A stretch of DNA of 64,000 nt from Comamonas terrae. Lineage in GTDB: Bacteria > Pseudomonadota > Gammaproteobacteria > Burkholderiales > Burkholderiaceae_C. Below, piece by piece: positions 23,443 through 30,197 of the stretch (position 1 is the stretch's first letter; each line of letters opens with the position of its first letter). A model generated the notes under the pieces. That model did no database searches. It was not told the origin of the DNA and was given only the letters and a program-made list of their open reading frames with translations. The stretch covers positions 248,001 through 312,000 of the forward strand of contig NZ_BCNT01000001.1 in the NCBI RefSeq assembly GCF_001544075.1, in the 5' to 3' direction. The position numbers were made by a program, and so were the translations under genes.

Positions 23443-24072
23443 TCACCAGGGCAGCCTCAGCCGCACGGCACAGCTCCAGGCATCCGCCAGGCGCCCGGCG
23501 CCGCCAAAGGGCCGGCCGCCATGGGCAGCAGGCTCGCAATCGACCAGCACATGGGCCAGCGGGGGGACACGCTCCCGCACCAGGGCCAGGACATCGGGGC
23601 TGCGGAAATCGCTGAGCACCCAGAGTTGGGGCTGCATTTCGGGCCACCGGGCCAGCATCTGCCATGCTGCCTGGAAGGCCTGGGCCAGGGGCGTGCCGCC
23701 CCCCCCGGGCAGCGGGTCGATCCATTCCGCATTCCAGCGCGGCGCCCGGCGCGGCGGCAGCTGCCATTGCACCTGGCCTGCGCCGAAGCACAGCAGCGCC
23801 ACGGGCATGCGCTGCAGATAGGCCCGGCACAGCCATTGCAGCAGCAATCCCTTGGCGCGGGCGAAGGCGCCGCTGTCCAGCATCGAGGCCGAGCAGTCGA
23901 GCGCGAACACCTGCAGCCCCTGGGGCTGGCCCAGGCCCTGGCGCCAGCGCAGGTGCCCGGCCGCCAGCGGCTGGCCGCGGCGCGCGCGCAGCGTGGCGGG
24001 CCAGTCGAGCACGGCGCCCGGCCGGCGCTGCGCCACGGGCTGCGCAGGGCTGGCCAGCGCAGCCCCGGCCAT
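23443..24072 (-). CDS. chlD: ChlD-type VWA domain, read by -1 frameshift from the upstream AAA+ frame
   Basis: C-terminal half of a medium chelatase subunit. The MIDAS motif is FALDCSASMLDSG (DxSxS), with GGGGTPLAQAF and LWVLSDFRSPDVLALV supplying the other metal contacts. If translated alone, the first ATG is at 24072 (209 residues), with only a weak GGGGG upstream. The frame is open back through the A7 run at 24132-24138, where it is -1 relative to the AAA+ frame. Frameshifting there would give a 607-residue AAA+/proline-rich/VWA protein ending at 23443, the normal architecture and size of ChlD. I favour the fused product; an independently started VWA protein cannot be excluded. Confidence 0.85.
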   Translation of the reverse strand: MAGAALASPAQPVAQRRPGAVLDWPATLRARRGQPLAAGHLRWRQGLGQPQGLQVFALDCSASMLDSGAFARAKGLLLQWLCRAYLQRMPVALLCFGAGQVQWQLPPRRAPRWNAEWIDPLPGGGGTPLAQAFQAAWQMLARWPEMQPQLWVLSDFRSPDVLALVRERVPPLAHVLVDCEPAAHGGRPFGGAGRLADAWSCAVRLRLPW

Positions 24073-24104
24073 GGGCACTGCGGTGCGCCCCCGGCCAGGG
24101 CGCG

Positions 24105-25265
24105 TCAGCGCCCCCGGCCGGGGGCGCGGGCTTTTTTTGCGGCCAGGGCCTCCAGGGCGGCCTGCGCCAGCGCGTCGGCCTGCAGCGCCGCGACCGGCGC
24201 GCTGGCCAGGGGCTGCGGCCGGCCCCAGTCGGCGGGCGGCTGCTGCAGGCCCTGCGCCGCGGCCCCGGCCGGGCCGGGGCTGGGCGTCGGGTTCGTCTGG
24301 CCCGCGTTCCCCGCCGGGGTGGGCGATGGAGGCGGCACCGGTGTTGATGCCGGTGCTGGTGCCGGTATTGGCGCCGGCGACGGGGCCGGGCGCTGCGCGG
24401 TGTCGGCGGGCGCCTGGCTGGCACGGTGCAGCAGCACCAGGGGCGCCACCGCAGCCACATGGCGCGCGCCGATGCCCTCGCTGCCTTCCCAGGCGGCCAG
24501 GGCGCGCGCCGCGCGCAGCATCACGAGGTCGGCGCGCAGGCCGTCCACCCGGGCATCTATGCACTGCTGCGCGACCTCGCCGTGCACGGCATCGCTCCAC
24601 GGCAGCTGGCCGGCATCGGCGCAGCGCAGCCGCGCCTGCCGCAGGCGTTCTGCCAGGCGCGCCTGCTCGGCCGCGTGGGCCTGCGCAAAGCCCGCGGGGT
24701 CGAGGTCGAAGCGCAGCCGCGCCTTGACGATGGCGCTGCGCAGCTGCGGGTCCTGCGCATTGGCCAGTTGCACGCACAGGCCCAGCCGGTCGAGCAGCTG
24801 CGGGCGCAGCATGCCCTCCTCGGGGTTCATGGTGCCGATCAGCACGAAGCGCGCCGCGTGGCTGTGCGAGATGCCGTCGCGCTCCACGCGGTTCACGCCC
24901 GAGGCGGCCACGTCCAGCAGCACATCGACGATGGCATCGGGCAGCAGGTTGATCTCGTCGACGTAGAGCACGCCACCGTGCGCCCGGGCCAGCAGGCCGG
25001 GCGCAAAGGCCACCTCGCTGCCGGCCAGGGCCTTGGCCAGGTCGAGGCTGCCCACCACATGCTCGATGGACGCGCCCAGCGGCAGCGTGACGAAGGGCGC
25101 GGGCGCCAGCACGTCGGCCAGCGCGCGCGCGGCCGTGGACTTGGCCGTGCCGCGCGGGCCCTGGACCAGCACGCCGCCGAGCGCCGGCTCGATGGCCGCC
25201 AGCAGCAGCGCCTGCACCAGCTGCGGCTGGCCCTGGATCGCCGATAAAGGGAATGTCGGTGTCAT
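24105..25265 (-). CDS. chlI: AAA+ chelatase subunit (ChlI/CobS-like), zero-frame product of the chlD gene
   Basis: Motor ATPase of 386 residues for cobalt insertion together with CobN. Walker A is GPRGTAKST (residues 36-44), Walker B VLYVDE (99-104), and NRVERDGISHSHAARFVLIGTMNPEEG is the Mg/Co-chelatase family insertion and sensor region. The AAA+ domain ends near residue 280 and is followed by a proline-rich linker (PAPSPAPIPAPAPAS and on), which is a feature of ChlD, not of small subunits, and supports the idea that this is the front half of chlD. It stops at TGA 24105-24107, just after the slippery run. The ATG at 25265 overlaps the cobN stop (ATGA). Confidence 0.9.
   Translation of the reverse strand: MTPTFPLSAIQGQPQLVQALLLAAIEPALGGVLVQGPRGTAKSTAARALADVLAPAPFVTLPLGASIEHVVGSLDLAKALAGSEVAFAPGLLARAHGGVLYVDEINLLPDAIVDVLLDVAASGVNRVERDGISHSHAARFVLIGTMNPEEGMLRPQLLDRLGLCVQLANAQDPQLRSAIVKARLRFDLDPAGFAQAHAAEQARLAERLRQARLRCADAGQLPWSDAVHGEVAQQCIDARVDGLRADLVMLRAARALAAWEGSEGIGARHVAAVAPLVLLHRASQAPADTAQRPAPSPAPIPAPAPASTPVPPPSPTPAGNAGQTNPTPSPGPAGAAAQGLQQPPADWGRPQPLASAPVAALQADALAQAALEALAAKKARAPGRGR
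24108..24153 (-). promoter_or_regulatory. Putative -1 programmed ribosomal frameshift signal in chlD
   Basis: On the minus strand: SD-like GGAGG (24149-24153), ten bases, then codons GCA AAA AAA GCC holding the slippery heptamer A-AAA-AAA (24132-24138), four bases, then the perfect palindrome GCGCCCCCGGCCGGGGGCGC (24108-24127), an 8-bp all-GC stem with a four-base loop. The zero-frame TGA follows the stem at once. The arrangement is that of E. coli dnaX. A -1 slip continues as KK-SPRPRPGALTRPGRGR into the VWA domain. A second GGCCGGGGGCGC at about 24086-24097 could pair alternatively with the 5' arm. Confidence 0.85.
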
Positions 25266-29141: not shown

Positions 29142-30197
29142 TCAAGCCTCTGCCGCCGCCAGCGCCGTGCGCAGCCGCTCCGCATCCAGGCCCTGGCCGA
29201 TGAACACCAGGCGCGTGGCCGGGGCTTCGCCGGCCGTCCAGGCGCGGTCGAAGTAGGCGTCGAAGCGCCGCCCCACGCCCTGCACCAGCAGCCGCATCTT
29301 CTTGCCCGGCAGCGCGGCGAAGCCCTTGACGCGCAGCACCGCGTGCTGCTGCACGATGGCCTGCAGCGCCTGCAGCAGGCGCTCGCGGTCCACCGCGCCC
29401 AGGTCGATGTGCAGCGCGTCGAAGGCGTCGTGGTCATGGTCCTCGTCGTGGTCGTGGTGGGAGTGCCGCTCGTCGATATGGGCCTCGGCCGCGCGCTGCT
29501 GGCCCAGCAGCACGGACAGCGGCACGCGGCCCTGCTCGGCCTCGACCATCTTGACCTCGGCCGGCACCTCGCCCGCGACCAGCGCGCGCACCAGGGCCAG
29601 TTCGGCGGGCGAAACCAGGTCGGCCTTGGACAGCACGACCAGGTCGGCGGCCGAGAGCTGGTCCTCGAACAGCTCATGCAGGCTGGCCTCGTGGTCGAGG
29701 TTGGGATCGGCCTGGCGCTGCTCGTCGACGGCATGCGGATCGTGAGCGAACTGGCCAGCGGCGGTGGCCGGCGTATCGACCACGGTGACCACCGAGTCCA
29801 CGGTGAAGACGCTGGCGATCTCGGGCCACTGGAATGCCTGCACCAGCGGCTTGGGCAGGGCCAGGCCGCTGGTCTCGATCAGCAGCACGTCGATGTCGGC
29901 GCGGCGCTCGGCCAGCGCCTGCATCACCGGAAAGAACTCCTCCTGCACGGTGCAGCACATGCAGCCATTGGCCAGTTCGTAGATGCGGCCTTCGGGCGCG
30001 TCGGCGCCGCCCTCCTCCCGGCAGCCGATGGCGCAGGTCCGGAGGATCTCGCCGTCTATGCCCAGCTCACCGAACTCGTTGACGATGACGGCCACGCGCA
30101 GCCCCTTGGCTTCTTGCAGGATGTGGCGCATCAGCGTGGTCTTGCCGCTGCCCAGAAAGCCGGTAACGATGGTGGCGGGGATCTTGGTGGTTTGCAT
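29142..30197 (-). CDS. cobW: Cobalamin biosynthesis GTPase CobW
   Basis: G3E-family P-loop GTPase metallochaperone of 351 residues, expected to deliver Co2+ to the chelatase. Walker A is GFLGSGKT (13-20), the metal-binding CxCC is Cys79-Met-Cys81-Cys82 in ANGCMCCTV, the guanine motif is SKAD in VVLSKADLVSP, and a His/Asp-rich loop (HSHHDHDEDHDHD) lies near residue 235, ahead of the CobW C-terminal domain. ATG at 30197 with GGAGAT upstream; four bases from the previous stop. Position between the ferredoxin-fusion gene and cobN fits its role. Confidence 0.96.
   Translation of the reverse strand: MQTTKIPATIVTGFLGSGKTTLMRHILQEAKGLRVAVIVNEFGELGIDGEILRTCAIGCREEGGADAPEGRIYELANGCMCCTVQEEFFPVMQALAERRADIDVLLIETSGLALPKPLVQAFQWPEIASVFTVDSVVTVVDTPATAAGQFAHDPHAVDEQRQADPNLDHEASLHELFEDQLSAADLVVLSKADLVSPAELALVRALVAGEVPAEVKMVEAEQGRVPLSVLLGQQRAAEAHIDERHSHHDHDEDHDHDAFDALHIDLGAVDRERLLQALQAIVQQHAVLRVKGFAALPGKKMRLLVQGVGRRFDAYFDRAWTAGEAPATRLVFIGQGLDAERLRTALAAAEA

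Follow-up and report, generated by a model that had tools for sequence, protein, structure and literature searches.

A cobN-linked chlD-type gene of Comamonas terrae as a candidate for −1 frameshifting that supplies two cobaltochelatase subunits

How can a single chlD-type gene beside cobN supply both the small and the medium subunit of aerobic cobaltochelatase, when its two halves lie in different reading frames? The question is raised by Comamonas terrae, in whose 64-kb stretch of DNA analysed here (the window) the AAA+ and the VWA portion of a ChlD-type protein stand in a −1 relation to each other, the arrangement that marks fs-chlD genes. Comparison of sequences makes it probable (about 0.88) that this one gene gives rise to both subunits by part-time −1 slippage. 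Antonov, in Molecular Biology and Evolution in 2020, is said to have proposed the same two-subunit frameshift idea for cobalamin producers. Ribosomes would slip back one base at A-AAA-AAA part of the time, presumably by a tandem shift of two Lys-tRNAs, and the slip would be stimulated by pairing of an upstream GGAGG with 16S rRNA and by a hairpin downstream. One mRNA would then yield a small subunit (AAA+ only, 386 aa) and a medium subunit (AAA+/linker/VWA, 607 aa), which would assemble with CobN as its ChlI/CobS-like and ChlD/CobT-like partners. The observations that bear on this proposal are the two frames, the in-phase heptamer, the GGAGG at ten bases, a stem that changes on both sides and the linkage to cobN.

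The AAA+ frame begins with an ATG that overlaps the stop codon of cobN as ATGA on the minus strand (Table 1), and its translation contains a Walker A motif (GPRGTAKST) and a Walker B motif (VLYVDE). An initial annotation had read this frame as ending at 24105 and the VWA domain as continuing in the −1 frame, open to 23443. These coordinates were borne out, and translation reproduced both predicted lengths, 607 residues after a −1 slip at the A7 run and 386 residues without a slip. The elements described at the junction (A-AAA-AAA, a GGAGG ten bases 5' of it, a palindrome four bases 3' of it, and then TGA) are all in place, and the central claim of −1 programmed frameshifting in a chlD-type gene fits both the comparative evidence and a published family. 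The A7 run is one of three 7-long runs of A or T in the window, which holds none longer; in 18 hand-picked genes of the window, lysine is encoded by AAG 242 times and by AAA 29 times.

Table 1. Features of the chlD-type locus in the window, and a CobS/CobT-like gene pair in the same genome.
Feature	Position	Strand	Remarks
cobW, upstream of cobN	29142..30197	−	TIGR02475 488.9 bits, cut-off 332.1
cobN, cobaltochelatase large subunit, 1273 aa	25262..29083	−	TIGR02257 1494.9 bits, cut-off 822.05
Zero-frame ORF, ChlI/ChlD-like AAA+ ATPase and Pro-rich linker, 386 aa	24105..25265	−	profile matches, translation
SD-like GGAGG	24149..24153	−	ten bases 5' of A7
Slippery heptamer A-AAA-AAA	24132..24138	−	phased GCC GCA AAA AAA GCC
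Predicted stimulatory hairpin	24085..24127	−	5' arm 24112-24127, 3' arm 24085-24100, TGA in apical loop
20-nt perfect palindrome	24108..24127	−	starts four bases after A7
Zero-frame stop TGA	24105..24107	−	end 27 nt past heptamer
−1-frame continuation, linker and VWA domain, MIDAS DCSAS	23443..24132	−	runs to stop at 23443
CobS/CobT-like pair, outside the window	G000:C7:243346-245989 (= L095 7347-10023)		

Both parts of the gene match TIGR02442, a putative cobaltochelatase of the fused form, the AAA+ part with 373.3 bits and the VWA part, against the C-terminal part of the model, with 50.9 bits. That model describes a protein read in a single frame, and its cut-off of 779.45 bits is not attained by either part by itself. 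The VWA part also matches the C-terminal part of TIGR02031 (51.4 bits), and it scores 23.7 bits against Pfam VWA_2, under the cut-off of 27 bits.

The window gene is a member of the published fs-chlD family, with which it shares the gene itself, the −1 direction, an A-rich slippery site, a downstream RNA structure, the cobN partner and the proposal that small and medium subunits come from one gene. According to Antonov et al. (NAR 2013, PMC3711429), there are 23 magnesium-chelatase fs-genes of the −1 type in six genera, including Delftia and Burkholderia; in E. coli reporters, three cassettes shifted frame at 63, 40 and 10%, the lowest value coming from the one with A7. Kuznetsov et al. (2022, PMC9227772) regard fs-chlD as a known class able to supply both aerobic cobalt chelatase subunits. 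Delftia and Burkholderia are already covered by the published signal. There is also a likeness to enterobacterial dnaX (tau/gamma), which has an A-rich heptamer, an SD-like stimulator upstream and a hairpin downstream (the dnaX elements as given in PMC3711429). The slip proposed here would, in contrast to that in dnaX, yield the long product, and the genes are unrelated. In dnaX the SD-like stimulator has a spacing of ten bases, and it is the short product that arises by frameshifting.

Is the −1 relation peculiar to this genome? Relatives were collected from species genomes with the AAA+ part alone as query, and the best 80 of 494 encoding places were kept; because the query held only this part, the frame of the VWA domain was not selected for. 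A VWA match follows downstream in 72 of the best 80, in the −1 frame in 65, fused in frame in five (L013, L067, L079, L080, L083) and in the +1 frame in two, namely L031, which has A6, and L086, which has masked sequence and a distant VWA. Three of the eight places without a VWA match proved to be fused on translation (L073, L074, L078), giving eight fused genes in 80; three run into a contig end (L033, L077, L081) and two have a stop behind the AAA+ part (L082, L084). All 65 relatives with a −1 VWA carry an in-phase A-AAA-AAN no more than 120 nt before the zero-frame stop, a recurrence beyond what chance would give; the GGAGG named in the initial annotation is general only within the clade of the window. 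Behind the first A, 59 of these relatives have the codon pair AAA-AAA, five have AAA-AAG and one has AAA-AAC. Elsewhere in the AAA+ part, 59 loci with a GC content of at least 55% encode lysine by AAG 178 times and by AAA 78 times. Walker B is present in 65/65 and Walker A in 64/65, the exception being L085, which begins inside the motif at a contig end. The −1 relatives come from beta- and gammaproteobacteria and from one metagenome-assembled genome (MAG) labelled Aquificaceae, so that conservation extends beyond close kin. In the tree, the fs-chlD gene of that MAG (L055) groups with Thiotrichaceae, which points to gene transfer or a mislabelled bin.

A second sample comprised 150 genomes of the family to which the window belongs, in 17 of which the CobN match falls into the top score class (1233-1301 bits). 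Among the matches listed, TIGR02442 AAA+ and VWA matches adjoin the top-class cobN in all 17. Read on the DNA, the two parts stand in −1 relation beside cobN in the window and 16 others, each with an A7 in phase (17/17); four of the 16 non-window loci duplicate loci of the first sample. The listed matches also include partial ones that were left uncounted, in G097 (near a contig start) and G014 (in pieces). Together with the first sample, which was not chosen by frame, this makes it likely that supply of two subunits by one gene is the arrangement across betaproteobacterial B12 producers.

Two loci have an irregular layout. In Acidovorax sp. SUPP3334 (L013, 4001-5554) the chlD gene is fused in frame and lacks a run of A6; next to it, the cobN match switches frame in a draft contig, so the locus is possibly decaying or mis-assembled. 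At G014:C54:52124-52738, pieces of a chlD-type AAA+ domain lie in overlapping, different stretches with no VWA among the matches listed, and resemble a decayed gene or a poor assembly.

The signal itself was compared over 77 sites. Seven had been dropped from an initial set of 84: L031 (A6), L077 (not a site), L072 (N's) and the duplicates L136, L137, L143 and L147 (of L044, L014, L007 and L048, respectively). Counts over the 77 are not independent, because near-copies remain among them (L050/L057, L048/L051/L056 and a Variovorax set). All 77 have a MIDAS DxSxS motif in the −1 frame after the slip.

What lies downstream of the heptamer? In the 77-site comparison the 5' arm of a stem starts directly behind the usual position of the stop codon. 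With a 9-nt arm at fixed distance, eight or nine of the nine positions pair downstream in 60/77 sites, the share among 539 control positions being 19%; all nine pair in 34/77, compared with 2.2% of the controls. At stem positions 4, 7 and 8 the pair types change on both sides; the figures for pairing and change count related sequences and not events. The downstream stimulatory RNA structure is a predicted one, backed by these two-sided changes. The folding energy behind the slippery site is only moderately unusual across sites, with a median z of −1.7 compared with −0.17 in control stretches of the same genes, and z falls below −2 in 28/77. In the window, the 75 nt behind A7 have an MFE of −61.2 kcal/mol and z = −3.58. 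Values above 0 were obtained for L008 (0.20) and L140 (0.60), both of which belong to the clade of the window and have arms pairing 9/9, and also for L040, L041, L062, L064, L065, L070, L071 and L085. At six AT-rich sites of gammaproteobacterial type (L055, L064, L070, L071, L075, L085) the fold is weaker than −12 kcal/mol.

The palindrome that had been noted at the junction is present at 24108-24127, but it is not conserved, and the stem that has been kept is of longer range. As a conserved element the local 20-nt palindrome was rejected: when six of the seven clade members were aligned, only its 5' half was kept, and the same alignment showed both arms of the longer stem, the 5' one and its partner further downstream, to be retained. 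What makes the palindrome perfect is a duplicate of the 3' arm sequence directly behind the 5' arm. To judge by eye, the 3' arm has no T run behind it, which speaks against an intrinsic terminator at the hairpin, and an Rfam scan of 23900-24500 gave no match at E ≤ 1.

The position of the zero-frame stop sets one clade apart. In 69/77 sites the last base of the stop lies 6 nt past the heptamer, a typical site being A AAA AAA GCC TGA; in seven the distance is 27 nt and in one (L040) 18 nt. The seven with the late stop are the window, L007 (Acidovorax sp. MR-S7), L008-L011 (Comamonas) and L140, and a tree of the AAA+ part unites them with 100/99 support, so that a single change explains the late stop. 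Where most other fs-chlD genes have a stop, one codon behind the slippery site, this clade has an Arg codon (CGC, CGA or CGG), and termination occurs 27 nt on, at TGA or, in L140, at TAG; in the window that stop falls within the loop of the predicted hairpin. A further difference from the usual fs-chlD gene is the GGAGG at a spacing of ten bases, found in 7/7 clade members. Of the 70 other sites, 11 have a GGAG-type motif at a distance of nine or ten bases, three Delftia among them, which makes the element lineage-specific. As a family-wide feature an SD-like element is unsupported: 31/77 sites reach −5 kcal/mol or lower compared with 22% of 1232 control positions, with medians of −3.4 and −2.8, respectively. 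The late stop and the GGAGG together count as one observation, because the clade is one lineage.

We tentatively suggest, at somewhat less than even odds, that the signal was rebuilt in this clade (the window, Comamonas and Acidovorax MR-S7): a single loss of the adjacent stop would have shifted termination into the hairpin, and the GGAGG and the hairpin would set the product ratio in place of competition with that stop. Unshifted ribosomes would have to unwind the 5' arm before stopping, and hence these two elements would set the ratio. If this is true, the clade offers a natural experiment on the role of a nearby stop in bacterial −1 frameshifting. In the literature covered, no further publication on the fs-chlD signal was found, and the late stop may already be in print. 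What this study adds to the published family is the definition of a conserved stem and of a clade with a moved stop.

Could the long protein be made without a change of frame by the ribosome? If RNA polymerase added or dropped an A at A7, some mRNAs would encode the fused protein. According to PMC3711429, homopolymeric A runs can slip in transcription, but this takes more than seven A. Longer runs do occur in some relatives (nine A in L055, L064, L070, L071, L075 and L085, eight in L063), whereas 6/65 have just A6 followed by G or C. Since the A-AAA-AAN phase is fixed and, in most GC-rich members, a stem changing on both sides comes after it, neither of which transcriptional slippage needs, this explanation is very unlikely. 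It is also very unlikely that two separate proteins are made with no frameshift at all, the VWA part being started on its own after termination by coupled reinitiation. A separately started VWA protein is possible in the window, where a GTG stands 18 and an ATG 20 codons past the slip, both ahead of the VWA domain, and where the SD-like match of the GTG is strong (−8.6); an ATG at least 35 codons before the MIDAS motif is present in 19/77 sites. As a general rule, an independent start was rejected on account of the sites that lack one: in 22/77 the −1 frame contains no ATG, GTG or TTG between the slip (or a point 30 nt earlier) and ten codons before MIDAS, and in 18/77 it contains none even when the open frame is traced upstream for as much as 300 nt. 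Reinitiation would, moreover, leave A7 and the stem unexplained. There is a practically negligible chance that the gene is an ordinary fused chlD that has lost one base in its A run, by sequencing error or decay. Homopolymers are prone to error, and L031, which has A6 in place of A7, is a possible instance; the −1 relation with an in-phase A6 heptamer is nevertheless found in 65/72 relatives, an agreement that makes an assembly error unlikely, and in 17/17 of the partly overlapping second sample, and the domains on both sides of the junction are intact. Genes of the fs-chlD type should not be labelled pseudogenes by annotators.

Are there other genes from which the subunits might come? The cobN of the window is the only CobN-like match in the genome. 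The initial annotation had seen no separate small-subunit gene in the window, and a ChlI check of the genome gave no second strong match: besides one match of 21 bits, TIGR02030 recovered only the gene itself, with 254.5 and 55.1 bits, and no stand-alone ChlI. With the looser PF01078 the best match has 318 bits and lies in a 536-aa frame at G000:C4; the domain also occurs in YifB/ComM proteins. A ChlI search in the genomes of 45 of the 80 relatives, many of them possibly incomplete MAGs, gave a single strong locus in 44 among the matches listed, presumed to be the chlD gene itself. The remaining genome, G184 (that of the fused L067), has two further strong ChlI loci among those listed. Five fused genes were included in this search, and the other four (L013, L079, L080, L083) have no second strong ChlI among the matches listed; the short product may therefore not be needed everywhere.

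The absence of cobS and cobT that had been noted is true for the window, but a CobS/CobT-like pair is present elsewhere in the genome, where it apparently belongs to a sulfonate cluster. Such a pair makes a second source of subunits possible. In this alternative the frameshift would be real, but the pair would serve CobN and the fs-chlD products would act elsewhere, which is very improbable. The pair is present and its CobS-like member scores 494.5 bits against the CobS model, yet both members lie under the curated cut-offs (TIGR01650, 494.5 of 558.55; TIGR01651, 300.4 of 759.05 bits). CobS-like genes and top-class CobN occur together slightly above chance in the family (5/15 versus 12/135, p = 0.015). 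Among the matches listed, however, the CobS-like gene stands beside Xsc in 15/15 cases and fs-chlD beside top-class CobN in 17/17, and supply of both subunits by the frameshifted gene remains the preferred reading. Ten of the 15 genomes with a CobS-like gene lack the top CobN class, eight of them have no CobN-like match at all (including G115, the sole other genome in the sample from the genus of the window), and 12 of the 17 top-CobN genomes lack a CobS-like gene. For annotators, the presence of a CobS/CobT-like pair elsewhere in a genome does not prove a classical CobNST enzyme.

What, then, might the CobS/CobT-like pair do? Full-length CobS-like genes (495-532 bits) occur in 15/150 family genomes, adjoined in each by Xsc, a sulfoacetaldehyde acetyltransferase, among the matches listed. 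Xsc itself exceeds its cut-off in 17/150, 15 of which have the CobS-like gene, and 133/150 have neither (p = 8e-19), again among the matches listed. Within the same limits a CobT-like partner is found at 14/15 CobS-like loci, an IclR-type regulator at 13 and a Pta-like gene at 10, the loci being L095 and L150-L163 and the names of the neighbours coming from the genome of the window alone. Because the pair is linked to Xsc and mostly occurs without top-class CobN, it is likely to belong to sulfonate metabolism, as judged by gene neighbourhood. No publication joining Xsc with cobaltochelatase or CobST in the sense of an activase or chaperone was found in the portions of the literature covered by the search. 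CbbQ/CbbO provide a precedent of the activase or chaperone type for Rubisco and, by analogy, the CobS/CobT-like AAA+ pair may serve Xsc, or another sulfonate enzyme, as a dedicated activase or chaperone.
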